Shown here piece after piece: positions 1 through 14,324 of a stretch of DNA of 64,000 bases; position 1 is the first letter of the stretch; the number at the start of each line of letters is the position of its first letter. The notes beneath the pieces are model-generated. The model was not told the DNA's origin, did not search any database, and saw nothing but the letters and a program-made list of their open reading frames with translations. The position numbers were made by a program, and so were the translations under genes. The DNA comes from Acidobacteriota bacterium (GTDB lineage Bacteria > Acidobacteriota > Thermoanaerobaculia > UBA5066 > Gp7-AA6), in assembly GCA_027307335.1 (NCBI GenBank), contig DAHUXD010000013.1, forward strand, positions 1 to 64,000, in the 5' to 3' direction.

Positions 1-1089
1 CGCCGCCGCGGCACGCCGCCGGGCCTCCCCGTCGCGGAGGAGCCCGCCGAGCGCGCGGGCGAGCGCCGCGGGATCCGCGGCGCACTCGACGGCCCCTCCC
101 GCGGCCGCGAGCTCGCGGACGATCGTTCCGCCGTGGACGGCGACGGACGGCACGCCGCCCCACGCCGCATCGAGCACGCGCGTGCGGTACGCGAGCTCGG
201 TCTCGAGCCCCGGCGAGGCGATCGAGACCGCGACGTCGGCCGCGGCATAGAGGTCCGCCCGCGCCGCGTAGGGCTGCCAGGGCGAGAAGAAGATCGACCG
301 CCCGTCCGGGTCGATCTCCCCCGCCCGCCTCCGCGCGCCGGCGAAGGCCCGCTGGGGCGTCGACTCGGGATTGGGGTTTTCGAAGAAGACGAGGCGCGCG
401 TCGGGGTGCTCGCGGGAGAGCGAGGGCCATGCCTCGAGCAGCGGACCGGGGTCGTACCAGTCGTAGATGCCTCCGAAGAGGACGAGCGGGCCCGAATCCG
501 GCACGCCGAGGGCGCGCCGGCCGCGCGCGCGATCCCCATCCGCGGGCGCCTCCGGAACGCCGAACGGCACGATCCCGAGGAGGCCGGCGAGCGAGGGATC
601 GCCCGGGAAGTTGCCGCCGCCGATCCGGCCGGCCGCGAAGAGCGCGCCCGCGTAGAAGAGCCGCTGCTCCGGCGAGGCGCACAGGAAGAAGTCCGCCCGC
701 GCCAGAGCCAGCGCCAGGCTCTCGCGATCGTGCCGCGCCGTCGCCTCGCCGAGGAGGGCCGCGTAGTGGAGGTTCTCGACCGGATACGGATCGTAGAGGT
801 CGCAGGCGACCGGCACGTCGGGCACCTGGTGGAACCACGAGTTCGCGGCGTGACCGGACACGACGGCCGCGCGCGCGCCGCGCGCCGCGCTGCCCACCGA
901 CTCCGCCGCGGCGCGAACGATTTCGAGGCCCCCGGCGACCTCGCTCGCCTCGGCGGGGTCGTTCGGGACGAGGAGCCGCACCGGAGACTCGGCGGCGAGC
1001 GCGCGGGCGAGCTCCATCGCGCGAATTCCCATGCCCGCCATCCGCGGCCGGATCGGCTCGGGCGCGAGGACCGCGACCGGTCCGCTCAC
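1..1089 (-). CDS. Glycosyltransferase, GT4-like, 3' end cut by window edge
   Basis: Open frame of 363 codons running off the left edge, so the C-terminus is missing. The GTG start at 1089 overlaps the TGA of the upstream PIG-L/GT2 gene (GTGA junction), which decides the start. The translation shows a GT-B type layout: an N-terminal acceptor-like half beginning VAVLAPEPIRPRMAGMG, then a donor-half with LVLFGGIYDWYDPGPLL, FFSPWQPYAARADLYAAADV and TRVLDAAWGGVPSVA, the usual order of a GT4 nucleotide-sugar domain. It would transfer a sugar to a growing surface glycan at the cytoplasmic face. It is the distal gene of the glycan operon visible here. Donor and acceptor cannot be told from sequence. 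Confidence 0.8.
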   Translation of the reverse strand, partial: MSGPVAVLAPEPIRPRMAGMGIRAMELARALAAESPVRLLVPNDPAEASEVAGGLEIVRAAAESVGSAARGARAAVVSGHAANSWFHQVPDVPVACDLYDPYPVENLHYAALLGEATARHDRESLALALARADFFLCASPEQRLFYAGALFAAGRIGGGNFPGDPSLAGLLGIVPFGVPEAPADGDRARGRRALGVPDSGPLVLFGGIYDWYDPGPLLEAWPSLSREHPDARLVFFENPNPESTPQRAFAGARRRAGEIDPDGRSIFFSPWQPYAARADLYAAADVAVSIASPGLETELAYRTRVLDAAWGGVPSVAVHGGTIVRELAAAGGAVECAADPAALARALGGLLRDGEARRRAAAA

Positions 1090-2909
1090 CGCCGGCCGCG
1101 CAGGCGTTCCAGGAGGAGGTGCAGCTTCCAGGTGCGGGACCGGTAGATGCGATCGAGGGTGGCGCGCCAGACCTGGGCCTCCTCGAGCTGGCGCTCGGTC
1201 TCCGCGGCGCGTTCGTGGAGGAGCTCGTTCTCCGTCCGGAGGCGGCCCGTCTCGCTCGCCCGCTCGCGCTCGGATCGAGCGAGCGACTCCGTCGCGCGGC
1301 GCAGGTTCTCGCGCAGCTGCTTGAGCTCGCCCTGGGAGAGGCCGTCGCGGTCGTACCAAGCCGCGACCTGCGCGCGCATGCGGTCGAGCACGCGGCCGAG
1401 CCCCGCGTCCGTGCGCCGCGCCGCATAGCGCTCGAAGATCTTGCGCCGCGCGTCCTGGAAAGCGCCGGAGCCGGCCGCCGCATGGCCCGGATCGCTCGCG
1501 AGCGGCTCGAACACGCGGTACTCGCACGTCACCGCGCGGACGTGGCGCAGCGGCGCCTCGGCCGAGAGGCGGATGAGGAAGTCCCAGTCCTCGGAGTACT
1601 CCAGGCTCTCCTCGAAACCGCCGACCTTCCGATAGAGCTCGCGCGGCAGCAGCAGCGTGTGGATCGGAATGTAGTTGGCGTAGAGCAGGTAGTCCGGGTC
1701 GTAGTCGAGCGAGTACTGGAGCGCCCGGACGCGCGGCACCCAGCCGCCCTCGCCGGGGCCGTAGACGACCGTGACAGCGTCGGAGTAGACGGCCGGCTCC
1801 GGCCCCTCCCGCTGCGCGCGCGCGAGGATCGCGAGGTGATCGGGAAAGCAGACGTCGTCGTCGTCGAGGAACGCGACGAGGCCCTCCGTCGCGAGCGCGA
1901 CGCCGCGATTCGCGGCCGCCGAGCGCCCCTGCCGCTGCTTCGGCTCCTCGAGGACGAGAACGAACGATTCGCGGAAGGCGTCCGTCACCTCGCGCGGCGA
2001 GGCGCCGCCGTCGTTGACGACCACGACCTGCCGCGGGCGCGCGGTCTGCGTGCGCAGGCTCTCGAGCGCCTCGCGCAGGAGCGCGGGGCGATTGCGGGTC
2101 CGGATCACGACGGAGACCGGCGCGGGACCGCGCTCGCCCCCCTCGATCGCCGAAGGGCCGATCGCGCGGCGGAAGTCCTCGAGCGACGTCGTCGACGCCT
2201 CCGCGTAGGTCACGACGCGGAACGCCTCGACCGGTCCGCGGCCGTCGAGCGTGAGGCGCCGGTATGCGTTCAGGCCCTGGACCGCGCTGGCGTAGTCGCG
2301 GACGGCCTGCTGGGAGGCGAACGCGACGAGCGCGTCCTCCTTCTTCCGCGCCTCGGCCGAGATGTCGACCAGGACGTTCGGCAGGAGCGGGTGGGACAGC
2401 TCGTAGAACGCGAGGCGGAGGAAGCGGAAGCGGTCGTGGTCGGGATCGCCCGCGCGGGAGGCGGCGACGAGGGCGTAGAGCGCGTCGGCGAGCGCGCGGT
2501 GATCGGGGTGGATCTCGACCGGCGACGGCGCGAGGACGAGGTCGGGCGAGAACGCCTCGAGCTCCGCCGCGAGGGCCGCGCGCAGGGCGTCCGTCTCCTC
2601 GGCGAGGCTCCGGTCACCGAGCCCGCCGAAGCGCGGCGGCTCGGTCAGGCCCAGCGCGGCGGCGGCCCGCACGGCCTCGTCCCGCCGGCGCGCGGCGTAG
2701 GCGGCGAGGTCGCCGGGGCCGACGCCCTCCTGCGACGTGCCGTCGGTCGCGATCCAGATGCGGATCGCCTGGGCCTTCCCCGCGCTCTTGGCGATCGTGC
2801 CGCCCGCCCCGAGGGACTCGTCGTCGGGGTGCGCGGCCAGGACGAGGATGCGGGCGCCGGTCAGATCGGAAGCCGCGTAGGGAATCAGGGCGTCTTCGCG
2901 TTGAATCAA
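1086..2909 (-). CDS. PIG-L family deacetylase fused to GT2 glycosyltransferase
   Basis: 607 residues with a TTG start at 2909; no better in-frame start precedes the first domain. Residues about 20-250 are a PIG-L/LmbE zinc-dependent N-deacetylase: AHPDDE at 26-31 and HPDH at 134-137 carry the expected metal ligands. Residues about 262-470 are a GT-A GT2 domain: PVSVVIRTRNRPALL, VVVND near 298 and the DDDD metal/nucleotide motif at 339-342. The last 100 residues are charged and predicted coiled coil, ending in an LxxLLERLRGRR tail. The family knowledge suggests a deacetylated amino sugar made or used by the same polypeptide that transfers sugar; that coupling is inference. Overlaps the next gene by 4 bases. 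Confidence 0.88.
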   Translation of the reverse strand: MIQREDALIPYAASDLTGARILVLAAHPDDESLGAGGTIAKSAGKAQAIRIWIATDGTSQEGVGPGDLAAYAARRRDEAVRAAAALGLTEPPRFGGLGDRSLAEETDALRAALAAELEAFSPDLVLAPSPVEIHPDHRALADALYALVAASRAGDPDHDRFRFLRLAFYELSHPLLPNVLVDISAEARKKEDALVAFASQQAVRDYASAVQGLNAYRRLTLDGRGPVEAFRVVTYAEASTTSLEDFRRAIGPSAIEGGERGPAPVSVVIRTRNRPALLREALESLRTQTARPRQVVVVNDGGASPREVTDAFRESFVLVLEEPKQRQGRSAAANRGVALATEGLVAFLDDDDVCFPDHLAILARAQREGPEPAVYSDAVTVVYGPGEGGWVPRVRALQYSLDYDPDYLLYANYIPIHTLLLPRELYRKVGGFEESLEYSEDWDFLIRLSAEAPLRHVRAVTCEYRVFEPLASDPGHAAAGSGAFQDARRKIFERYAARRTDAGLGRVLDRMRAQVAAWYDRDGLSQGELKQLRENLRRATESLARSERERASETGRLRTENELLHERAAETERQLEEAQVWRATLDRIYRSRTWKLHLLLERLRGRR

Positions 2910-2955
2910 CCCGGGGAGTTTACCAAGGTGGACGCGAGCTGATCTTTTTCGGAAT

Positions 2956-2982
2956 CGCGGCCCGGACGCTGTCCGGACCGCG
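2956..2982 (-). terminator. Strong hairpin without U-tract between GNAT and PIG-L/GT2 genes
   Basis: A 12-bp inverted repeat (2956-2967 with 2971-2982, three-base loop GCT/AGC, one G-U in the minus-strand RNA) lies in the 103-bp gap downstream of the GNAT stop. There is no T-run on the minus strand, so it may be a weak terminator, an attenuator or an RNA-stability hairpin. Confidence 0.4.
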
Positions 2983-3012
2983 ACTTCCGACGCGGCGTTC
3001 TCTCGCCGCGGG

Positions 3013-3954
3013 TCAGGTCAGGTCGTAGAGCGAGGGCACGAGGTGCACGCGCTCGCCGAAGCGGCGGACGGCCTCCTCGTCGTGGACGCGGACGATCACG
3101 GGAAACCCCGCGTCGGCGCGCTCGCCGGGGAGCGCCGCGATCGGAGCGCGCCCGGGTCCCCCGGGCGTCTCCCAGAAGACGAGCGCGGCGGCGCCGAGGC
3201 GGCGCGCCTCGTCGGCGGCGGCGGCGAAGAGCGGCGGCAGGTCGCCGCCGTCCGGTTCCCGCCCGAGGTAGTCGGCCACCGTCGCCTCCCGCCCGAAGAC
3301 CGAGAGGACCGCCCAGGAGACGAGCTCCCGGCCCTGACGGCGCCAGACCATCCGGTAGTAGCGCGTGGGGCGGGCGTGGAAGCGCCAGTTGACGCGCACC
3401 CGGTCGCGCACGGCGGCGTGCGTGAACGCGCGCCGCGCGGCCGCCCAGAGGGGGTCGAACGACTCGTCCACGAAGTCGCCCGACTCGGCGTCGGCGGGGG
3501 GCGCGCCGAAGGCCTCGACGGGCGTCTTCCGGAGCACGACGGGCAGGAGCGTCCTCGACCCCACGATCCGCTCGCTCACCTGCTTGTGCCGCTCCCCGGG
3601 AAAGCCGAAACAGAACGGGACGTCGGGAAAGACGCGGGCGTAGAACGCCTCGGCCATCGCCCGGAACACGCTCCGACGGCCGCCGAGCGCGCGCACGGTC
3701 GGCTCGGTCGCCACGTCGCCCACGGCATAGAGCAGACGCTCGCGCCCGTCGACGAGGAAGCGCATCCCCCAGCCCGCGTAGTTGCCGACGACGCGCCCGT
3801 CGACGACCGCCACGACGCCGTACCAGCCGTCGGGATCGCGCTCGAACTTCCACGACCACTCCTCCTCGGAGAGCGGCGTCCGGAACACCCGTTCGAAGAG
3901 CAGCCGGATCCCGGGCGCGTCGGCGGCGGTCGCCGTCCGGATCTCGAAGCTCAC
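3013..3954 (-). CDS. GNAT-type N-acetyltransferase
   Basis: 313 residues. Start taken as GTG at 3954, overlapping the TGA of the upstream GT2 gene (GTGA); a much longer frame upstream is only that gene's shadow. The N-terminus IRTATAADAPGIRLLFERVF and the following EEEWSWKFERDPDGWYGVV, then VVDGRVVGNYAGWGMRFLVDG are typical of GNAT beta1-alpha1 and beta strands; a second half may be a second, degenerate GNAT-like fold. Such proteins are common in polysaccharide loci, where they acetylate amino sugars or related amines using acetyl-CoA. The substrate is not readable from sequence. It is encoded within the coupled run of glycosyltransferase genes. Confidence 0.7.
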   Translation of the reverse strand: MSFEIRTATAADAPGIRLLFERVFRTPLSEEEWSWKFERDPDGWYGVVAVVDGRVVGNYAGWGMRFLVDGRERLLYAVGDVATEPTVRALGGRRSVFRAMAEAFYARVFPDVPFCFGFPGERHKQVSERIVGSRTLLPVVLRKTPVEAFGAPPADAESGDFVDESFDPLWAAARRAFTHAAVRDRVRVNWRFHARPTRYYRMVWRRQGRELVSWAVLSVFGREATVADYLGREPDGGDLPPLFAAAADEARRLGAAALVFWETPGGPGRAPIAALPGERADAGFPVIVRVHDEEAVRRFGERVHLVPSLYDLT

Positions 3955-4970
3955 GCCTTCCGCCACACGAAGGTCTCGAGGGGCCGTCCGTCCGCCTCGC
4001 GGAAGACCCGCAGCCAGACGAGCCCCGGCGGAAGGGACGCGAGGACGTCGTCGGGCAGCCGGAAGTCCCGGTCGAGGGCCGCGCCCGCGAACGGGACGAA
4101 CGAAGGATTGGTCGACACGGCGAGCCACGCGCCGGCGCGGGCCGGAATCGCGGGCTCGGCGAGGGACGTCGCCGCCGGCACTCGCGGCGACCGCGCGGCC
4201 GCCCGGTCGAGCAGGAGGCGTCCGAGCCTTCCCCACCGGCGTTCGCGGTAGAGCCGGCGGGAGACGGCGCGGCGCCGCTCGGTGTCGGGATTGCGGCCGG
4301 CGCTGCGCGCGTAGAGGTGGCGCACGCGCGCTTCGGGGACGAAGCGGAGCCGCAGGCCGGCCCCGCGCACGCGGTCCTCCCACTCGGTCTCCTCGTACTC
4401 GAAGAGGAAGCGCTCGTCGAAGCGGCCGATGCGGTCGAAGACGTCGCGGCGCGCCGCGAGGACCGCGCCCGGCAGGTGGTTCGCGTCGCCGCCGCTTCGC
4501 CACAGCGCGAGCGTGCGCCGCGCGAACGGCGCGAAGTGGAGCTGGCCGAGCTCGCCGAAGAAGCCGGAGGCCGGGTCGGCCGGCAGGCGCAGGCGCTCGC
4601 CTTCGTCCCACAGGCAGAGCGGCGCGGCCGCGCCGACGCGCCGGTCCTCGAGCGCCGCGAGGAGCGCCGTCAGCGCGCCCGGCAGGAACACGACGTCGGC
4701 GTTCGAGACGACGAGGCGGTCCGCCCGGGCGCGCGCGAGGCCCGCGTTGGCGCCGCCCGAGTAGCCGCGGTTCTCATCGAGGAACACCTCGGCGTCGGCG
4801 GCGATGGCGCGGAGCGCGCGGACCTCGTCGTCACCCGAGGCGCAGTCGACGAGCACGAGCTCGCCCGCGATCGCCTCGCGGGTGAACGCCGCGCGCAGCG
4901 ACTCCGCGCACGCCGCCGCCTCGGCGGCGCTGCGGTGGTTGACGACGACGACCGAGACGCGCGGCGTCAC
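3951..4970 (-). CDS. GT2 family glycosyltransferase
   Basis: 339 residues from a GTG at 4970 that has a GGGGAGG ribosome-binding site upstream; the longer upstream frame is arginine-rich shadow. GT-A signatures: RVSVVVVNHRSAAEA at the N-terminus, ELVLVDCASGDD, the rhamnosyltransferase-like ENRGYSGGANAGLARA, VVSNADVVF as the DxD-type position, and a GRFDERFLFEYEETEWEDRV segment that provides the ED general base and the acidic acceptor region. Most like the rhamnosyl/N-acetylglucosaminyl subgroup with the RG[YF]GxGxN pattern, so it probably extends an O-antigen- or exopolysaccharide-like chain. Overlaps the GNAT gene by 4 bases. Confidence 0.88.
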   Translation of the reverse strand: MTPRVSVVVVNHRSAAEAAACAESLRAAFTREAIAGELVLVDCASGDDEVRALRAIAADAEVFLDENRGYSGGANAGLARARADRLVVSNADVVFLPGALTALLAALEDRRVGAAAPLCLWDEGERLRLPADPASGFFGELGQLHFAPFARRTLALWRSGGDANHLPGAVLAARRDVFDRIGRFDERFLFEYEETEWEDRVRGAGLRLRFVPEARVRHLYARSAGRNPDTERRRAVSRRLYRERRWGRLGRLLLDRAAARSPRVPAATSLAEPAIPARAGAWLAVSTNPSFVPFAGAALDRDFRLPDDVLASLPPGLVWLRVFREADGRPLETFVWRKA

Positions 4971-4982
4971 GCGGCCCTCCCC

Positions 4983-4999
4983 GGCGGCGTCACGCCGCC
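4983..4999. repeat. 17-bp palindrome containing the stop of the upstream GT4 gene
   Basis: GGCGGCGTCACGCCGCC, perfect about a central base. The TGA of the GT4 gene lies in its centre. The same 17 bases recur at 50568-50584 inside the DNA polymerase III delta gene. In such GC-rich DNA an exact 17-mer repeat is not by itself significant. Confidence 0.35.
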
Positions 5000-6000
5000 C
5001 TTCCGGAAAGCGCCTCGGCAAACGCCGCCTCGAGCCGCTCGGCCACGCGCGACGCGTCGTGGCGCGACGCCTCGGCCGGACCCGCGACGCGCGCGCGGGC
5101 GCGCGCCTCGGAAGCGAGCAGGGCCGGCAGCGTGGCCGCGAGGCTCTCCGCATCGCCGTCTTCGAAGTACCAGGCGGCGTCGCCGCCGAGCGCGCGGTGC
5201 CGCGGCGTGTCGGAGAGCAGCGTCGGCACGCCGCAGGAGAGAGCCTCGAGTGACGGCAGGTCGAAGCCCTCGACGGCGCGCGAGGGGCCCACGTACAGGT
5301 CGGCGGCGCGGTACGCGAAGGGCATCCGCCCGGGGGGAAGACCGTGGTGGTACTCGTCGGTCAGCCCGCGCCGCCGCTCGGCGTCCGTCGGCGGCGTCGC
5401 CGAAACGCGCCGCAGCCGGAAGCGGCCGCCCCGCTCGCGCCAGAGGGCGAGCCCGTCCAGCGCGATCGGGATGCCCTTGGTCGGACCCTCGTAGGGGCCC
5501 ACGAGCAGCACGACCGGCGGGTCCGCGGCAGCGCGCTCGGGGCCCGGCGAGAACTCGCGCGCGTCGAAGACCTGTCCGACGTCCACGACGGGCCCGAACC
5601 CGCGCTCCGCGAGGCGCTCCGCGAGGGGCGCGGACACGGCGAGCTTGCGCGTCGGCAACCGGTACGCGGCCTCGATCGCGGGCCACGCGTCGCGGTAGAA
5701 GTCGAACTCGCCCTCGAATCCCTGGCAGAGGTGGAACACGGGCCCCCGCGCGCCCTCGACCGCCAGAGCGGCCGTCGTCCAGAAGGTCGCGACGCGCACG
5801 TCGGCGTCCGCGAGCGCCGGGGATCGATCGAACGCCGCGCGCTCGAAGCGGGCCCACCGCAGCGGATGCCACGCGGGCGGCGCGTCCGGCGAGACGACGG
5901 TCACCCGATGGCCGCGGCGCGCGAGCGCCTCCGCTTGCCCGAGGGCGACCTTCACGCCGCCGCAGAGCTCCGTCGAGGCGAGGAGGTAGGCGACTCTCAT
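4990..6000 (-). CDS. Glycosyltransferase family 4 protein
   Basis: 336 residues from ATG at 6000; the ATG overlaps the TGA of the methyltransferase gene (ATGA), which fixes the start. Opens with MRVAYLLASTELCGGVKVAL, the glycine-rich loop of GT-B transferases, continues with a donor-binding half starting PPVVLLVGPYEGPTKG (the conserved K of the K/R-E pair follows) and the E-x7-E-like block AVEGFDLPSLEALSCGVPTLLSD. This is a retaining GT4 enzyme acting on a nucleotide-sugar donor at the inner membrane. It sits in the coupled glycan operon between a methyltransferase and a GT2 enzyme. Sugar specificity is unknown. Confidence 0.9.
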   Translation of the reverse strand: MRVAYLLASTELCGGVKVALGQAEALARRGHRVTVVSPDAPPAWHPLRWARFERAAFDRSPALADADVRVATFWTTAALAVEGARGPVFHLCQGFEGEFDFYRDAWPAIEAAYRLPTRKLAVSAPLAERLAERGFGPVVDVGQVFDAREFSPGPERAAADPPVVLLVGPYEGPTKGIPIALDGLALWRERGGRFRLRRVSATPPTDAERRRGLTDEYHHGLPPGRMPFAYRAADLYVGPSRAVEGFDLPSLEALSCGVPTLLSDTPRHRALGGDAAWYFEDGDAESLAATLPALLASEARARARVAGPAEASRHDASRVAERLEAAFAEALSGRAA

Positions 6001-7100
6001 GCCTCGTTCGCCGCCGTCGCGATCCACTGGTAGGTGGCCAGGCTCTCGACGTCGCGGCCGGGCCAGCCCTCGGTCGCCGCGAGAAATCCGCCGGCGTCGG
6101 GCGGCGGCGCGCCGCGCTCGCTCTCGATCGACACGGCGCGCCAGCCCGCCTCGGCGATCGTCTCGGCGAGGAAAGGCCGGGTGAACCAGCGGAGATGGCC
6201 GGCGTCGGTCAGCCCCGCGGGGAGGAGATCGAATCGGCCGGCGACGAGGTCGCGGACGAGAGAGAGATGGCCGGCGTTCGGCACGCTGACGAGGAGGAGC
6301 GCGCCCGGCGCGGCCACGCGGCGGGCGGCCGCGAGCGCCGCGTCGGGATCCTCGAGGTGCTCGAGCACGTCGGCGAAGACGAGCGCGTCGAACCGCTCGC
6401 CGGCCCGCTCGAGCTCGGGCAGCACGCGCCGCAGGTCGCCCTCGAGGATGCGCGCGCATCGCCCCCGCGCCCGCCGCGCGAGCTCCGGATCCGCCTCGAT
6501 GCCCGTCACGCGCCAGCCCGGCCGCCGGACCGCGGCCGACGCGATGGCGCCGCCCGCGCCGCAGCCGGCGTCGAGAATCGCGAGCGGCCCTTCCGGCAGC
6601 CGCGACGTCAGCTCCGGGCGCTCGGCCCCGCCGGGAGCGGAAAACGGCGCGGCGGCGAGCCGCGCGTCCTCGAGCGAGGCCCCCTCGCGCCCGCGGAGCC
6701 GCTCGATCCATGCGGCGACGGACTCCGCCGGCGCCGGAGGGAAATCCGACGGCCGGAAGAGGAGGGCCGCGGGCTCGGCGGCGGGGCGCCGCGCGAGACG
6801 GGCGTGCTCGAGCTCGCGGAGCGTGTGCACGGGAGGCGGGCCGTCGGGCGACGCCTCCGCGGCGGCGACGACGCGGCCCGGGATCGCCGACGGCGGCTCG
6901 GCCGAAGGCACCGGCAGCGCGGTCGGGTCCAGGACGACGAGCCACTCGGCGGCGCCGGTGAGCCCACGGCCGGCGAGGTCCCCCGGCTTCCAGGACGACG
7001 CGGAGGCCGCGCCGGCGAGGCGCCGCCACCGGAGCCGCTGGAGGCGCGCGCCGTAACCGGGCGGCGCGCCGGCCTCGAGGAAGGCGACGGCGAGGCTCAA
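5997..7100 (-). CDS. SAM-dependent methyltransferase with N-terminal extension
   Basis: Taken as 367 residues from a TTG at 7100 that overlaps the TGA of the ABC ATPase gene (TTGA junction), matching the overlaps of its neighbours; an ATG 270 bases further up lies entirely inside that gene. The C-terminal 190 residues are a class I methyltransferase: LDAGCGAGG as motif I, GIEADPEL as the acidic ribose-binding loop, FDALVFADVLEHLEDP and PGALLLVSVPNAGHLSL, the pattern of Methyltransf_11/23 and UbiG-like enzymes. The roughly 150-residue N-terminal part is not recognised. In this context it probably methylates a glycan terminal residue, which in ABC-dependent O-antigen systems can act as the chain-stop signal recognised by the ATPase; this is inference. 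Confidence 0.75.
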   Translation of the reverse strand: MSLAVAFLEAGAPPGYGARLQRLRWRRLAGAASASSWKPGDLAGRGLTGAAEWLVVLDPTALPVPSAEPPSAIPGRVVAAAEASPDGPPPVHTLRELEHARLARRPAAEPAALLFRPSDFPPAPAESVAAWIERLRGREGASLEDARLAAAPFSAPGGAERPELTSRLPEGPLAILDAGCGAGGAIASAAVRRPGWRVTGIEADPELARRARGRCARILEGDLRRVLPELERAGERFDALVFADVLEHLEDPDAALAAARRVAAPGALLLVSVPNAGHLSLVRDLVAGRFDLLPAGLTDAGHLRWFTRPFLAETIAEAGWRAVSIESERGAPPPDAGGFLAATEGWPGRDVESLATYQWIATAANEA

Positions 7101-8344
7101 GACGAGGCGGCGACGCCTCCGGCCGCGGGGAGCGCCTCGGGAGCGTCGTCGGCCTCGGCGAGCGTCCATTGGTGGCGCGGGGCGACGACGCCGACGACGT
7201 ATTCCGGCGCCGCCACCGTGAATCCCGGCCTCAGGATGCGGACGTCGTGCACGTGCAGCGCCTTCTCGTCGCCGACGTAGGCGTACACCTCGAAGTCTCC
7301 CTGCGCGAGCGGCAGCTCCGGCAGGACGAGACGGACGCGATAGCGGCGGCGGCCCGAGAGCGGCGCCCACGCCTCGTCGCGCGTGTCGACCGCGAAGGCC
7401 TGCATGCCGTCGTCCCGGTCGACGCCGACGCGCACGTGGAAAGCGAGGGCCGGATCGTCCGTTTCGAACGCGACGTCGACCGCGAGCGCCTCGCCCGCCG
7501 CGAACTCGGTCCGCGGATACCCCGAGCCGTCGTGAACGACGACGTCCGTCAGCCGCGCGGGCTTCCGGCCGTCGGTCGCCGCGGGGCGCGCCGTCTCGAA
7601 CTCCCGCGCCGGCTCCTTCTTGCGCAGAAACGACTCGTATTCGCGCACGACCGGGAGCGCCCTCCCCTGCGCGGCGACCGAGCCGTTCTTCAGCCAGACC
7701 GCCGAGTCGCAGAGGAGCGCGACGTAATACATCGCGTGCGAGCAGAAGAGGAGCGTTCCCCCGCGGCGGTGAAACTCGGTGATCCGGTCGACCGACTTCT
7801 TCTGGAAATAGCCGTCCCCGACGGAGAGCGCCTCGTCGACGATGAGGACCTCCGCATCGCCATGGGTCGCCACGGCGAACGCGAGCCGCAGCACCATCCC
7901 GGACGAGTAGGTGCGCACGGGGCGGTCGAAGAAGTCTCCGAGCTCGGCGAAGTCGGCGATCTCCGGGATGCGGCGCCGGATCTCGGACGGGCCGAGGCCC
8001 AGGATCGCCGCGTTCAGGCGCGCGTTTTCCCGGCCGGTGAACTCCGGGTGGAATCCCATGCCGAGCTCGAGGATCGAGGCGACCGTCCCCCGGCGCTCGA
8101 CGGTGCCCGACGTCGCGCGGGTGGTTCCCGCCACGATCTTCAGCAGCGTGGACTTGCCGGCTCCGTTCTCGCCGATCAGGCCGAGCGCGCGGCCGCGCGG
8201 CAGCTCGAACGAGACGTCCGACAGCGCGCGGAACTCCTGGTGCCGCGGACGACGGAAGATCAGCTCCCTCAGCCGGTCGGCGCCGGACGCGTACACGCGA
8301 TACGTCTTCGACACGCGGTCGGCGCGAACGGCGAGCTCGCTCAC
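7097..8344 (-). CDS. Polysaccharide ABC transporter ATP-binding protein, Wzt-like
   Basis: 415 residues from GTG at 8344, whose first base is the last base of the TAG of the radical SAM gene. ATPase domain about 1-245: Walker A GENGAGKST, a Q-loop region near LELGMGFHPEF, signature YSSGM, Walker B VLIVDEALSVGD and switch SHAM. This is the TagH/Wzt subgroup. Residues about 270-400 form a beta-rich C-terminal domain (RVGVDRDDGMQAFAVDTRDE) as in Wzt proteins that bind the finished O-polysaccharide. It needs an ABC-2 permease; the only candidate nearby is the gene ending at 17745, about 9 kb upstream in the same orientation. Confidence 0.9.
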   Translation of the reverse strand: MSELAVRADRVSKTYRVYASGADRLRELIFRRPRHQEFRALSDVSFELPRGRALGLIGENGAGKSTLLKIVAGTTRATSGTVERRGTVASILELGMGFHPEFTGRENARLNAAILGLGPSEIRRRIPEIADFAELGDFFDRPVRTYSSGMVLRLAFAVATHGDAEVLIVDEALSVGDGYFQKKSVDRITEFHRRGGTLLFCSHAMYYVALLCDSAVWLKNGSVAAQGRALPVVREYESFLRKKEPAREFETARPAATDGRKPARLTDVVVHDGSGYPRTEFAAGEALAVDVAFETDDPALAFHVRVGVDRDDGMQAFAVDTRDEAWAPLSGRRRYRVRLVLPELPLAQGDFEVYAYVGDEKALHVHDVRILRPGFTVAAPEYVVGVVAPRHQWTLAEADDAPEALPAAGGVAASS

Positions 8345-9459
8345 TAGTCTCCCAGCGCGAACTCGCAGCGGCGGCAGAGGAAGTCCGCCGGCGCCTCCTC
8401 GACGCCGTAGGTCCAGCGGCGCAGCCGCGCCATCGTGTCGCCGGCGAGGAGCCCGGCCACGGTCTCCTGCTTCAGGTCGCCGACCGTGAGGTGCTCGTAG
8501 TAGTCCTGGCAGCAGAGGACCGCCTTCGCCGTCGCGGTGACGTGCAGGTGCTCGAACGGCCGCGAGCCCATCAGCTCGCACCCGCGCAGCCGCTTCTTCG
8601 GCGGCGGCTCCGGCAGGTACGTGCCGCTCGAGGGGCGGCTGCGGATCTTGAACGGCTTGACGTCCCAGCCCTTCGGGCCGAAGCGCTCGCGGATCGCGGC
8701 GACGTCGCGGCGGTGCGCCTCGTCTTCGTCTCCGAGGACCACGATGGCCGTCTCCTCGGCCAGCCGGCGCGCGCGCAGCGCGTCGACGTTGGCGACGACG
8801 CGCGCGAGGTCCTTCGTTCCGTGCAGCTTCTCGTACCGGTCGGGGTCTAAGGTCGGCAGGTTGATCCCGACGTAGCGGAAGCGCCCCATCGCCTCGATCC
8901 GCGCGGCGCGCTCGGCGTCCAAATGAGAGGCGTTCGTCAGGATCGAGACCGGAAGGCCGTGGTCGAACAGGACGCGGCACCGCTCCTCGAAGAGGGGGTC
9001 GACGGTCGGCTCGTTGTAGTTGGAAAGGAAAACGACGACGTCGCGGCCGGCCGCGGCGACGACCTGGTCGACCAGCGAGGTGAAGAGTTCCTGGCTCATG
9101 ACCTCCTTGTCGCGCGGATCCACGGACACCGGGCAGAACGGGCAGCGGTGGTTGCAGCTCGTGCAGGTTTCGAGCGACACGTAGAGCAGGTGGGTGCGGC
9201 GCGCCTCCGCGAAGACGTCCTCGATCAGGAACCGCGCCGAGCGCAGGTGCGCCAGCAGGGCCGGGTCCGCGACCGCGGCCGGGTCTTCCCCGGCCTCGAT
9301 CCGCCGGAGGGCTGCGTAGGCCGGGCCGTCCTTCGAGAGCGAAGCCCCCGTCGACGGGTTGTACACCTCCGTCCCGCGATCGTGCAGGAAGGGGGTGGGC
9401 CGCTCCGCCGCGAGCACCGCGGCGCCCCGAGCGCCCTTCGAGGGGCCACTGTCGCTCAT
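8344..9459 (-). CDS. Radical SAM/SPASM protein with N-terminal RRE-like segment
   Basis: 371 residues, ATG at 9459. Residues about 20-85 (PTPFLHDRGTEVYNPSTGAS and following) resemble the PqqD-like winged helix that often precedes SPASM enzymes. The radical SAM cluster is C102-x3-C106-x2-C109, binding the 4Fe-4S that cleaves S-adenosylmethionine. The C-terminal part has several more cysteines (CEL near 293, VLCCQDYY near 314, CRRCEF near 366), the SPASM pattern for auxiliary clusters. The substrate is unknown: family members modify peptides, carbohydrates or cofactors. No short precursor-peptide gene is visible nearby, so a glycan substrate is at least as likely. It overlaps the Wzt-like gene by one base. 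Confidence 0.85.
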   Translation of the reverse strand: MSDSGPSKGARGAAVLAAERPTPFLHDRGTEVYNPSTGASLSKDGPAYAALRRIEAGEDPAAVADPALLAHLRSARFLIEDVFAEARRTHLLYVSLETCTSCNHRCPFCPVSVDPRDKEVMSQELFTSLVDQVVAAAGRDVVVFLSNYNEPTVDPLFEERCRVLFDHGLPVSILTNASHLDAERAARIEAMGRFRYVGINLPTLDPDRYEKLHGTKDLARVVANVDALRARRLAEETAIVVLGDEDEAHRRDVAAIRERFGPKGWDVKPFKIRSRPSSGTYLPEPPPKKRLRGCELMGSRPFEHLHVTATAKAVLCCQDYYEHLTVGDLKQETVAGLLAGDTMARLRRWTYGVEEAPADFLCRRCEFALGD

Positions 9460-9553: not shown

Positions 9554-12500
9554 CTAGGGGCTCCCGCAGACGAACGTGCCGAAGTCCTGCACGGGCGCGA
9601 AGGGCGTCCCGTCCGTATTGACGTAGGCCTTGCTCGCGCCCTTCAGCGTGTCGGTCACGGTCAGGTTGACGCCCAGGTTCGTCAGGCCGCTGGCGAACAC
9701 CCAGAAGTGGCCGCCGATCGAGCAGGCGTCGAGGACCTTGACGATGACCTCGGTGTTCGACGAGCTGAAGAACCAGAAGTAGCCGGTATCGGAGGTCAGG
9801 CTCGTGGCGGTGCCGTGGCCGCTCGTGGCCGACGCGCCGGAGCCGGTGGCCCAGTCGGCCGTGACGGTGAACCGGTTGTTCGTCAGGTGCAGCGTGTAGG
9901 GATCGGTGACCGTCAGGCGAATCGTGGCGGTGGCGCTGCCCGAAGTGGTCGTGCCGTCGCCGACGACCGTGAGCTTGACGCTGACGCTGGCGTTCGCCGT
10001 GTACGTGTGCGTCACGGTCGCTCCGGTGTCGCTCGAGCCGTCGCCGAAGTCCCACGTGTACGACTGCGCGTGCGTCTCGAGCGCCGTGAACGTCACCGGC
10101 ACGTTGACGGCGGCGATCCAGGGCGACGACGGCGACGTCCGCGTCGCGCCGCTCGTAATCGAGTAGGCGACGGACGGCGGCGGCGGTCCGGTTGAGGCGC
10201 CCACGGTGAAGCTGACGTCGGCGCTCGCCGACTGGCTGCCCGAGGTCGCCACGACGGTCACGATCTGCGTGCCGGCCGTGGTGAAGACGTGCGTGTTGGT
10301 GCCGTCGGCGGGACCTGGAGTCGGCGGGCATCCGAAGCTGATGCAGCCGTCGAAATCCCAGGCGTAGGAAACCGTGCCGCCGAAGCCCGACGCCGTCGCG
10401 ACGAAGCTGACGGTGTCCCCCACTGCCGGGTTGGACGGGCTCGGCGTCGCGAGCGCCACCGACGGAGCCGTCGTCGCCCGCGACTGGGCATTCAGAACCT
10501 CGCCGGCGGTGCAGGCTTCGTACTGCACGTCCTGAATCGGCCGGAAGGCCGTGCCCTCGGAGTTGTCGTAGGTCTTGGTGACGTTGGTCTGCGTGTCGAG
10601 GACCGTGAGCTGGACCTCGAGGTTCGTCAGGCCGCCCGCGAACACCCAGTGGAAACCGTTGACGTTGCAGGCGTCGAGGACCTTGACGACGAGTTCGAGA
10701 TTGTCGGGGTTGAAGAACCAGAAGTAGCCCGAGTCCGGCGTCAGCACGACCGCCGTGCCGGTGCCGCTCGTGCCCTGCGAGGAGCTCGCCCACGCGGCCT
10801 TGACCTGGTAGCGGCCGCTCGGACCGAGCGAGAGGACTCCGGGATCGAACACCGAGAAGCTCGCGGCGCCCGTGGTGGTGCCGACCGTGTTGGTTCCGTC
10901 GCCCGTAACCGTGAGCGTCACGTTGGGCGAACCCACGGCGGTGAACGTGTGCGTGACCGTCGCCCCGCTGTCGGTCGTGCCGTCGCCGAAGCTCCAATCC
11001 CACGACGTCGCGTGCGTCTCCGCCGCGGTGAACGTGATCGGGACGCCGACGGGGGCCTGCCAGGCGTTGTTCGAGAAGGAAGCGCCGGAGACCGTGAAGC
11101 CGCCGGAGGGCGCGGGAGTTCCGCCGATCGTGATCGAGGTGGTCGCCGTCTTGACGGTCGAGCCGTTGGAGGCCGTCACCGTGACGGTGTGCGTGCCGGG
11201 GTTGACGTAGGTGTAGGTGTTCGGGTTCGGCCCCGACACGGCGGCCTTCGGGGCCGCGGAGGCCCTCGCCGCCGGGACGGTCGAGCAGACGCGAACCACC
11301 CCGCATCCATCACCGCCGCCGCCCCCGCTTCCGCCGCTGCCGCCGCCCGAGCCGGCCGCGACGTCGCCGAAGTCCCACATGAACTGCGTCGGAGAGAAGC
11401 CCTGCGCGGTCGCCGTGAAGGTCACGGGCGCGCCGACCGCCGCGGTCGTCGGGGTGCCGGTGACGGACAGCGTGGCGCCGCCACCGCCGCATTGAGGCGG
11501 CTGGCACCCGCCGGCGCTCACCACGTACGCGGCGACGCCGAGACTGGTGGCGCCAGGGACCAGGGCCTTGAAGTAGCCGCTCGACTGGCTCGACGCCGCG
11601 AACGTCACCGGCCCGGTGCTGGTGGAGCTGCCGATGAGCGTGTCATTCGAGATCGAGGCCGGGCTAGTGTCGCCATTCGCGCTCCTGTAGAAGGTCACTC
11701 CGGGATACACGACGCCGGCGGGAACGCTCTCGTCGTCGAACAGGTAATACGTGTGGCCCTGCGTCATCTGGTACCCGGAGGGAGGGACGTAGTTGACGTC
11801 GCCCGAGTGGCTGGAGCTCGTGTACGCACCGACCGCAGGATTCGGCGAAAAGTCGATGACCGTCAGCGGCAGCGAGACCTGGGACGAGCGCGCCTGGCCC
11901 GTGTGGTCGACATAGTTGTAGGTCAGCTGAACCGTGTACGAACCGGCCGACGCGGGCGCCGTGGTCGGCGCGGTGCCGCCGGCCGCCAGGAACGACGTCG
12001 GCATGTTCCCGGAGAGGCCGCCCGGGGTGAGGAGATAGGTCACGGAGTTGAGCGTCGCGGCCGTCGCCTTCTGCATGAGGTTCTTCAGCGTCAGCGTCGC
12101 GCCCTTCAGCACCGGGTTCGGCGTCATCGAGAAGTTCGGCACGAGGTCGACCTGGGCGACGGCCTTGTTGAGGATCGAAACGGTGTAACCGCCCTTGTAG
12201 GTCGCCGTGAGCGAGAAGCCGGTCGCGGTCGTCGGCACCGTGACGACGGGCCCGCTCGCCGAGCCGGACGGCTGGAACGTCCAGGCGAACGTCGCCTCCG
12301 CCACGTTGCCCTGGGACCCGCTCGCGTCGCCGTTGTTCGCGTTGCCGGCGAGGACCTGCAGCGTCGCCCCGTCGAAGCCCGCGATCGAGACCGCCGGCGG
12401 AACGATCGTGATGCCGGGAGAAACCCACGGCGGAACGCCGTTCCCGTTGACGTTGTGCGTCTGGTCGCCGACGTAGAACGTTCCACCGCTCGCGGGCGAG

Positions 12501-14137
12501 CCGACGCTCGCGTAGCAGTTTGCGCCGGTGGAGGGATTACCGGCGGAGGCGGCGGCAGGGTCGCAGGGAAGGTAGATCGGTGAGAGGGTATTCAAGGGCT
12601 GCCCGCTGCTGCCGTACGCACCACTGAACGCGGCGTCCGGCGCGAAGTTGGCCACGACGCCGCCCGGAAGGTTGATGTCCCAGCTGATCGTGTCGATCGG
12701 CGCGTACGACACTGATTGGTCGGACAGCGAGAACTTGTCGCCGTAGTAATACGTCGTGCGGCCCTGCGCCTGCGCCGTCAGGTCGGTGATGGCGGCGCTG
12801 TTGACCGGAGGCGCGTTCGGATCCGCGTCGATGCACGAGATGTCGAACGTGTCGGTCCGCATGGGACTCTCGACGGTGGGAAGACCGGGCGGCGGCGGAA
12901 CCAGCTCGCGATAGAGATACGCGGTCAGCGTCGATCCGGACGCCTGTACCAGCGCCTCGAACCCGTAGTTGATGTAGTGGGCGCCGTCGCTCGAACCGAA
13001 TCCCGGAATCGAGCGAGCATGCAGCGGCGAGCCGCCCTGGGTCAGCCACTTCGTGTCGTAGACGTCGATCGACGACGCGGACGCGTCGCCGCTGTGGATG
13101 AACAGGCCGGGGAACGGCTGCGGACCCCGCACGATCGCGCGGCGCGCGTTGCCCGAAAACAGGTGGACCTGGCTGACCGTGCCGGCCACCGGATCGTACT
13201 TGAGCACCTGGGTGCCCGCGGCGCCCTCTGCCGCGAAGATGAAGATCTGTCCGTTCACCGTCGCGATGTCCATCTGCTGCGGGTTCGCGATGGCGGCGCC
13301 CGACGCGACCTCGGTCAGCGCGCCGGTGGCCGCGTTGATCTCGGCCACGTGCATCACCAGATCGGGCGTCGTGCCGACGAGGATGTATGCGTCGTAGTTC
13401 GGAATGCTGACGTGCTCGGCGCGAAGACGCACGGCGGTCTGGCCGCTCTGCCAGCTGATCGCGAGCGACGTGTCGATCGGGTTGTGGTAGTCGGGCAGAC
13501 CGCTTGGACTCGACAGATCCGCGAGATAGACGCCGTCACTGTCGATGGGCAGATAGGCGAAATACTTGCCATTGCCCGTGTAGACGACCGTCGACCGGCC
13601 GCCCGGCGGCACTCGGTTCGGGAGGTCGACCTGCTGACCGAAACCCGGAGCGCCGGCGCCGGTGGCCATCGTCGCCTGCGCGGGAAGCCCCGAGAAGTTG
13701 CCGTTCGGATCGTTCGGGGGCGGGGGGCCGCCCTGGGTCCACGGGATCCAGTCCTCGATCATCCGGGCCGTGCCGCTGCCGTCCGAGTTCTCGGCGACAT
13801 CGAAGAACTGCGAACCCTGGTGGCAGTCGCAGAGGATCGGGATGATTCCGACGCTCGAACCGCCTTCGCGTCCGACGATGACCGAGTTGTAGCCGGTCGG
13901 ATTGCCGGGGTTGTTCGCGAGCGAGACCCGGGAGATTCCCCACTGTGTCAGGACGTAGAGGTAGTCCCCGTTGACGCCGAGGGCCATGTCGCCCGACGGC
14001 GGAATCGTGCCGCTCCCCGAGGGCAGCGGTGTCTGTGCCACCACGGGCGGCGTCTGATCACAGACCTGGGCGAGGGCGGGCGACGCCAGGGCCAGGAGCC
14101 CGAGAGCCACACCGAGAGCCAGGGGTTTCCTGAGCAT
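9554..14137 (-). CDS. Large exported PKD-domain protein with duplicated C-terminal modules
   Basis: 1527 residues. The start is the ATG at 14137, which has GGAGG upstream and begins a signal peptide (MLRKPLALGVALGLLALASP, cleavage after AQ near residue 25); an upstream ATG adds only non-secretory sequence. Residues about 25-430 look like a repetitive beta-propeller-type region. PKD/Ig-like cores follow, with WDFGD near 921, WSFGDG near 1050, WDFDG near 1262 and WDFGDG near 1363. Two copies of a further module, each with GYFWFF, a VKVLDAC block and a final cysteine, lie at about 1100-1210 and 1415-1527; together with the preceding PKD they form a tandem [PKD + module] duplication. No membrane anchor or sorting signal is seen. 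Likely a secreted or cell-surface adhesion/structural protein; function unknown. Confidence 0.85.
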   Translation of the reverse strand: MLRKPLALGVALGLLALASPALAQVCDQTPPVVAQTPLPSGSGTIPPSGDMALGVNGDYLYVLTQWGISRVSLANNPGNPTGYNSVIVGREGGSSVGIIPILCDCHQGSQFFDVAENSDGSGTARMIEDWIPWTQGGPPPPNDPNGNFSGLPAQATMATGAGAPGFGQQVDLPNRVPPGGRSTVVYTGNGKYFAYLPIDSDGVYLADLSSPSGLPDYHNPIDTSLAISWQSGQTAVRLRAEHVSIPNYDAYILVGTTPDLVMHVAEINAATGALTEVASGAAIANPQQMDIATVNGQIFIFAAEGAAGTQVLKYDPVAGTVSQVHLFSGNARRAIVRGPQPFPGLFIHSGDASASSIDVYDTKWLTQGGSPLHARSIPGFGSSDGAHYINYGFEALVQASGSTLTAYLYRELVPPPPGLPTVESPMRTDTFDISCIDADPNAPPVNSAAITDLTAQAQGRTTYYYGDKFSLSDQSVSYAPIDTISWDINLPGGVVANFAPDAAFSGAYGSSGQPLNTLSPIYLPCDPAAASAGNPSTGANCYASVGSPASGGTFYVGDQTHNVNGNGVPPWVSPGITIVPPAVSIAGFDGATLQVLAGNANNGDASGSQGNVAEATFAWTFQPSGSASGPVVTVPTTATGFSLTATYKGGYTVSILNKAVAQVDLVPNFSMTPNPVLKGATLTLKNLMQKATAATLNSVTYLLTPGGLSGNMPTSFLAAGGTAPTTAPASAGSYTVQLTYNYVDHTGQARSSQVSLPLTVIDFSPNPAVGAYTSSSHSGDVNYVPPSGYQMTQGHTYYLFDDESVPAGVVYPGVTFYRSANGDTSPASISNDTLIGSSTSTGPVTFAASSQSSGYFKALVPGATSLGVAAYVVSAGGCQPPQCGGGGATLSVTGTPTTAAVGAPVTFTATAQGFSPTQFMWDFGDVAAGSGGGSGGSGGGGGDGCGVVRVCSTVPAARASAAPKAAVSGPNPNTYTYVNPGTHTVTVTASNGSTVKTATTSITIGGTPAPSGGFTVSGASFSNNAWQAPVGVPITFTAAETHATSWDWSFGDGTTDSGATVTHTFTAVGSPNVTLTVTGDGTNTVGTTTGAASFSVFDPGVLSLGPSGRYQVKAAWASSSQGTSGTGTAVVLTPDSGYFWFFNPDNLELVVKVLDACNVNGFHWVFAGGLTNLEVQLTVLDTQTNVTKTYDNSEGTAFRPIQDVQYEACTAGEVLNAQSRATTAPSVALATPSPSNPAVGDTVSFVATASGFGGTVSYAWDFDGCISFGCPPTPGPADGTNTHVFTTAGTQIVTVVATSGSQSASADVSFTVGASTGPPPPSVAYSITSGATRTSPSSPWIAAVNVPVTFTALETHAQSYTWDFGDGSSDTGATVTHTYTANASVSVKLTVVGDGTTTSGSATATIRLTVTDPYTLHLTNNRFTVTADWATGSGASATSGHGTATSLTSDTGYFWFFSSSNTEVIVKVLDACSIGGHFWVFASGLTNLGVNLTVTDTLKGASKAYVNTDGTPFAPVQDFGTFVCGSP

Positions 14138-14285
14138 GAGGAGCCTCCGGACGGGGTTCGGCGATACTCGAGGCCGACGTAATCCACGATCCGATTTCAC
14201 TTTTCCTCCGTAGCCTCCACGTGGGCTGCAGGGGGAAAACCGAAATCGGACCATTCGGGATCGGGCTGGAAGCAGCGAACCACCA

Positions 14286-14324
14286 TGAAAAAGAAAGGTG
14301 GGCGGGGCGCATGCCCCGCCCACC
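14286..14324 (-). terminator. Rho-independent terminator after the 480-residue exported protein
   Basis: A 12-bp perfect stem (14297-14308 with 14313-14324, loop GCAT) is followed on the minus strand by TTTCTTTTTC. It begins 13 bases after the TAA at 14337, ending that transcript before the PKD gene. Confidence 0.88.

Follow-up and report, generated by a model that had tools for sequence, protein, structure and literature searches.

An unnamed C-terminal domain of exported proteins in Thermoanaerobaculia, possibly an extracellular pairing module

The window analysed here, a stretch of 64,000 nucleotides from an Acidobacteriota bacterium, encodes an exported protein in which one block of about 110 residues occurs twice among PKD domains. 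The locus raises the question of what this block is and what it may do for the proteins that carry it. We find that the repeated block is a protein domain family without a name in the libraries searched, and that it is mainly a C-terminal domain of exported proteins in the class Thermoanaerobaculia. What such a domain might do once outside the cell can be approached from its predicted fold and its pattern of conservation.

The window protein and its two module copies

The protein is encoded on the minus strand. Its reading frame can be taken from a GTG; however, the ATG at residue 63 (window position 14137) is the likelier start, and a signal-peptide-like stretch follows it. The frame, its domains and the matches of the reading frames downstream are as follows.

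9554-14323, minus strand: open reading frame of the exported protein, 1589 residues from the GTG, with four Pfam PKD matches
14066-14137, minus strand: signal-peptide-like N-terminus MLRKPLALGVALGLLALASPALAQ, from a rule-based scan
11120-11488, minus strand: PKD_0, residues 946-1068, weak mutual match to PKD_B (38 bits)
10838-11122, minus strand: PKD_A, residues 1068-1162, mutual best match with PKD_C (52.6%)
10511-10846, minus strand: module copy 1, residues 1160-1271, 53% to copy 2, profile match at 4.9e-46
10238-10483, minus strand: PKD_B, residues 1281-1362, matching the PKD of locus L113 (44.7 bits) and PKD_0 (38 bits)
9896-10216, minus strand: PKD_C, residues 1370-1476, mutual best match with PKD_A
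9566-9904, minus strand: module copy 2, residues 1474-1586, profile match at 1.2e-46, AlphaFold2 pLDDT 95.9
8344-9459, minus strand: match to a SPASM radical SAM protein
7097-8980, minus strand: match to an ABC/Wzt-type ATPase
1086-2909, minus strand: match to PIG-L and to a family 2 glycosyltransferase

The last three belong to a run of minus-strand reading frames downstream of the module protein (window 1086-9459) that is probably a polysaccharide export locus. The C-terminal third of the module protein itself runs PKD_0, PKD_A, module 1, PKD_B, PKD_C, module 2, and the stop codon lies three residues past the second module. A preliminary description of this DNA had PKD domains preceding the modules, which stands; the order that it gave, PKD-module-PKD-PKD-module, does not, the Pfam scan yielding PKD-PKD-module-PKD-PKD-module. 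The best of the four PKD stretches (1401-1471) falls outside the modules, and PKD_0 carries a mid-domain glycine-rich insert with extra cysteines.

Both copies contain GYFWFF, VKVLDAC, WVFAxGLTNL and a final cysteine, and they are identical at 60 of 114 positions (53%; BLASTP E 5e-39), which is more than chance. The two copies with shared motifs described previously are thereby confirmed, residues 1100-1210 of that account being copy 1 when counted from the ATG, and low similarity between the copies is excluded. Its suggestion of an in-gene duplication also fares well. In a database of 152 module-bearing reading frames, PKD_A and PKD_C are each other's best match (100 bits versus 48.9 for the next), and a careful tree of 44 rows, with L132-L134 left out, places the window copies as sisters (support 89/86, unstarred). 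The mutual match of the PKD domains adjoining the modules gives good support, short of proof, to an in-gene duplication of one PKD together with its module; against it, the copies are not nearest neighbours in a quick tree built from 153 rows from which end columns had been removed. For the larger PKD-PKD-module unit the case is only suggestive, since PKD_0 and PKD_B match weakly and PKD_B is nearer to the PKD of another protein of the same genome (L113).

A domain family at the ends of unlike exported proteins

A profile built from 30 copies of the window's own genome, both window copies included, finds 35 matches there, in 28 reading frames. Copy 2 as sole query recovers copy 1 at 1.7e-33 and 33 other places in the same genome at E 0.01 or better. 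Among sampled relatives the module is present in 15 of 30 genomes, the own genome included, and reaches 60 matches in one of them (G024). With a threshold of 1e-8, a sample of the phylum yielded matches in 43 of 396 genomes, namely 30 of 47 inside the class and 13 of the 349 others according to the sample's kinship column; at most 11 candidates were scored per genome, so that copy numbers are lower bounds and weak single copies may be missed.

A scan of GTDB contigs returned 247 related stretches, and the best 80 of these 247 represent 79 loci; the family may thus extend beyond the phylum. All but seven of these loci bear titles of Acidobacteria/Acidobacteriota, Thermoanaerobaculia, Thermoanaerobaculum, Holophagales or Candidatus Multivorans, the last of which belongs to Thermoanaerobaculia. 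The seven (L034, L044, L047, L060, L062, L074 and L088), from the metagenome-assembled genome P_S1_bin.14, are titled Deltaproteobacteria. Six of them share their contig coordinates with matches of G393, a genome in the window's class, and the title therefore seems wrong. No relative of the module was found in viral contigs, nor in plasmids or phages when one own-genome module served as query, and an origin in mobile elements was rejected on these grounds.

Searches of the family libraries were equally unproductive. Pfam gave no credible match to the modules of the window protein or to the 30 modules scanned (one PKD_2 at E 0.21), NCBIfam gave only chance-level matches, PHROGs gave no credible match for the seven of 30 copies scanned, and the best hit among PDB sequences stood at E 0.98. 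We therefore set aside the idea that the module is a known family: it is unnamed, as first described, with no confident match to a characterised family in the libraries or the PDB and no significant PDB fold match. The statement that similar sequences recur in acidobacterial secreted proteins proved correct in the own genome, the relatives, the phylum sample and a signal-peptide scan. A literature search by motif and topic, covering titles and the openings of abstracts, returned no description of the domain. Accessory domains at the C-terminus of exported proteins are familiar as a type; the module adds to them a family for which neither a name nor a fold relative in the PDB was found.

The related loci L031-L109 hold 175 modules in 124 reading frames, 122 of which are complete at the 3' end. 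Within this set the last module ends no more than nine residues from the end of the frame in 119 of the 122, and 51 of the 122 carry two or more modules. These loci were picked by similarity and include close relatives, so the own genome and G024 were checked as well. In the own genome a module lies within three residues of the end in 20 of 28 frames and is internal in the other eight; in G024, for which the count rests on 30 of its 60 matches, 21 of 24 distinct frame ends are within 10 residues of a module, a few of the matches being partial. Two endings recur, DTxAFxxCP and SVADTxAF. The preliminary description had recognised the module correctly; its C-terminal position, the range of its cargo and the frequency of tandem pairs were absent from that account.

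In doublets the modules are separated by linkers of 20 to 62 residues. As a general rule, a split of inner and outer modules into two old lineages was rejected: on a tree of poor resolution the labels would have to change 25 and 24 times. In the 44-row tree one gene trio of the own genome does place inner and outer modules in separate clades, with sister pairs elsewhere. A longer array of diverged copies is seen in G024 (C13:254093-255553), where four weak module matches follow one another in a single open frame of 1396 residues. Loci L037-L042, L042 for example, each hold three to four adjoining reading frames with a terminal module; Pro-Asp-rich linkers precede the module in several of them, and two frames of L042 contain an HExxHxxGxxH-like motif.

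The cargo is diverse. When compared by BLAST at 1e-10, 123 N-terminal parts fell into at least 27 clusters. The Pfam scan covered 20 of the other 27 proteins in the own genome, assigning a family at 0.01 to 14 of them, as well as 37 of the 123 related parts. The enzymes recognised were matrixin and trypsin-like proteases, a phosphoesterase, a sulfatase and GH8; the remainder included plastocyanin-like domains, sortilin/BNR, Vgb-lyase and PQQ propellers, LRR, PPC, CARDB and others. Under a simple rule, signal-peptide-like starts are present in 22 of 28 own-genome frames versus 2.2 in shuffles, and in 85 of 111 related frames versus 16.9. A small stand-alone protein made up of a signal peptide and a single module is shared by the own genome and six genomes from another genus. 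Between the 12-kb neighbourhoods of this gene in the own genome and in the six others, the module frame is the sole match among the matches listed. Around it in one of the six, ten reading frames, some overlapping, include no secretion or sorting enzyme; they comprise a peptidase S41, a histidine phosphatase, an AAA ATPase, a phosphomannose isomerase and a TM198-like match just under the cut-off.

Predicted fold, cysteine pairs and conserved faces

AlphaFold2, supplied with 106 sequences (173 of the 175 related modules, thinned to 104 at 75% identity, and both window copies), predicts a compact fold for the single module, nearly all beta (pLDDT 95.9, pTM 0.88). Foldseek found no PDB or viral match to this model below E 0.1 (best 0.13), so that modelling and searching one module, as had been proposed, gave a confident beta fold and no significant PDB match. 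The best rows from VIA-align were leviviral coat proteins (PP7, PRR1 and Qbeta), at Z 5.7 and an rmsd of 3.6 over 72 of 120 residues. These coats, which are obligate beta-sheet dimers, form a recurring PDB group (Z 4.0-5.7, with one more at 3.2); however, such values lie in the range of common arrangements, the Foldseek result was non-significant and there is no sequence or functional link to the module, and the likeness was taken to be such an arrangement.

Cysteines were counted in the same 106 rows and in the 153 that remained, after removal of near copies, from 203 of 210 modules entered (at least 86 model positions, E 1e-12). The cysteine of VLDGC and the one after the final phenylalanine occur together in 89 of the 106 rows and are both missing from 17; in the larger set the figures are 118 and 34, with one odd row in which an insertion shifts a cysteine. 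This covariation takes only one or two changes on the tree, and by itself is weak evidence because it amounts to one subfamily split. A leader cysteine and that of the LCL strand are both present in 128 of the 153 rows, both absent from 15 and discordant in 10. Here 14-15 tree changes are needed, few of them on well-supported branches (two independent pairs), and nine of the 10 discordant rows have another cysteine nearby, eight in CYET, these being close relatives by sequence, and one in SGC. Of the 153 modules, 148 have an even number of cysteines in the excerpt. Taken together, these statistics favour two disulfides, VLDGC to the terminal cysteine and leader to the LCL strand, and they favour the bond between the two cysteines that was envisaged at the outset. 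The leader/LCL pair is missing from both window copies, for which only the VLDGC-terminal disulfide is predicted.

The strands differ in how their faces are conserved. In strands 17-24 and 83-90 a conserved hydrophobic face alternates with a variable polar one, whereas in strands 45-51, 56-65 and 71-80 both faces are conserved, to about the same extent among single (68), inner (45) and outer (40) modules. Both faces of strand 110-117 are moderately conserved, one of them not hydrophobic. AlphaFold2, given 50 doublets for the L041 tandem pair, returned pLDDT 90.7 and pTM 0.85, with linker residues 124-138 and 140-145 under pLDDT 50. As a pTM of about 0.5 was estimated for modules turning freely, the program appears confident of their mutual placement, and the model points to tandem modules fixed relative to each other across a disordered linker. 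The doublet has no significant match in the PDB; the rows were mostly antibody-like sheets, and the best Foldseek E of 3.5e-3 came with a TM of 0.15-0.17.

A possible pairing function and its rivals

It is tempting to speculate that the module is an extracellular, disulfide-stabilised pairing domain, and we put this forward as a tentative reading, quite possible if short of probable. After export, two modules would pack through the strands around GYFWFF, NVELVVKVLDG and WVFAGGLTN. Tandem copies would pair inside one chain, and a single copy could find a partner module on a different exported protein, thereby dimerising or joining proteins at the cell surface or beyond it. Such pairing in trans is proposed because single modules keep the second buried face, a mark expected of a pairing surface. 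The two modules of the window protein, with two PKD spacers between them, could pair mutually or bridge two partners. In favour of pairing are the mainly C-terminal position, the frequent doublets, the unlike cargo, the signal-peptide-like starts, the fixed placement predicted for a tandem pair, the strands conserved on both faces and the even cysteine numbers. Against it stand the variable length of the doublet linkers, the internal position of the module in eight of 28 own-genome frames and the one or two tree changes behind the VLDGC-terminal covariation. Confidence in it is further held down because the same conservation would be expected of a face that binds a ligand or a machine. A bolder version, in which a lineage-specific fold acts as a C-terminal snap fastener whose inner and outer paralogues give partner specificity, we regard as doubtful.

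A rather unlikely alternative, if one to be taken seriously, is that the module serves as a signal for sorting or surface attachment, its folded domain at the C-terminus being read by a dedicated outer-membrane secretion or anchoring machine and perhaps later cut off. Mainly C-terminal position, many unlike cargoes and high copy number all speak for it, and recall the C-terminal domain of type IX secretion (Por_Secre_tail, PF18962), which is beta-rich, sits on many unlike exported proteins, dozens per genome, and is recognised by a dedicated outer-membrane machine. The module shares that architecture, but the 30 modules scanned against Pfam include no Por_Secre_tail match, and tandem copies, a stand-alone version and two cysteine pairs set it apart. 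Nor was a co-occurring type IX marker found when 10 module-bearing and 10 module-free genomes were compared, and no association with the module emerged. Por_Secre_tail is found in none of the 20, the own genome included, the control genome matching only below the cut-off; SprA_N is likewise in none, though no control genome matched either; Peptidase_C25 is in six of 10 and five of 10, respectively, and absent from the own genome; and Secretin, present in all 20, is uninformative. The retention of the module-only protein in seven genomes, the same internal modules and the neighbours of the stand-alone gene, without a secretion or sorting enzyme in the genome inspected, also argue against a sorting role.

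Unlikely too is a ligand-binding role, as an adhesin or a carbohydrate- or matrix-binding module that tethers exported enzymes to their substrate or to the cell's own polysaccharide. The conserved aromatic block GYFWFF and W73, the sulfatase, GH8 and proteases among the cargo, and the glycosyltransferase, PIG-L and Wzt-type ATPase frames of the window would suit it, as would strands conserved on both faces; yet no solved structure matches significantly, carbohydrate-binding ones included, and propeller and plastocyanin-like cargo has no obvious polysaccharide target. Least probable, in our estimation distinctly so, is an Ig-like cap that only stabilises or protects the C-terminus and has no partner. 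Its location, disulfide-like cysteines and occasional junction with PKD, PPC or CARDB domains fit, but a cap leaves the two-faced strands, the AlphaFold2 pair and the conserved stand-alone modules unexplained. Like the PKD (PF00801) and PPC (PF04151) spacers, the module is a small beta domain on the C-terminal side of the same exported proteins; unlike them, it follows at the protein end and matches neither profile credibly.

A functional analogy for the pairing reading may be the dockerin/cohesin system, in which a C-terminal module on unlike exported enzymes brings about assembly by specific pairing. The module is likewise C-terminal on unlike exported proteins and proposed to act by pairing, whereas its proposed partner is another copy of itself, and neither dockerin nor cohesin nor any other Pfam family matches it.

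Some genomes hold 35 to 60 copies of a domain that is absent from the libraries searched, so that dozens of exported proteins in each go without an annotated C-terminus. The family can serve to mark exported proteins in a class represented here almost exclusively by metagenome-assembled genomes. It adds a fold that is predicted with confidence and has no detected solved relative, together with a testable model of extracellular protein organisation. Were the bolder snap-fastener version true, each genome would join dozens of its exported enzymes, propellers and copper proteins, with one or two module copies apiece, into extracellular assemblies.
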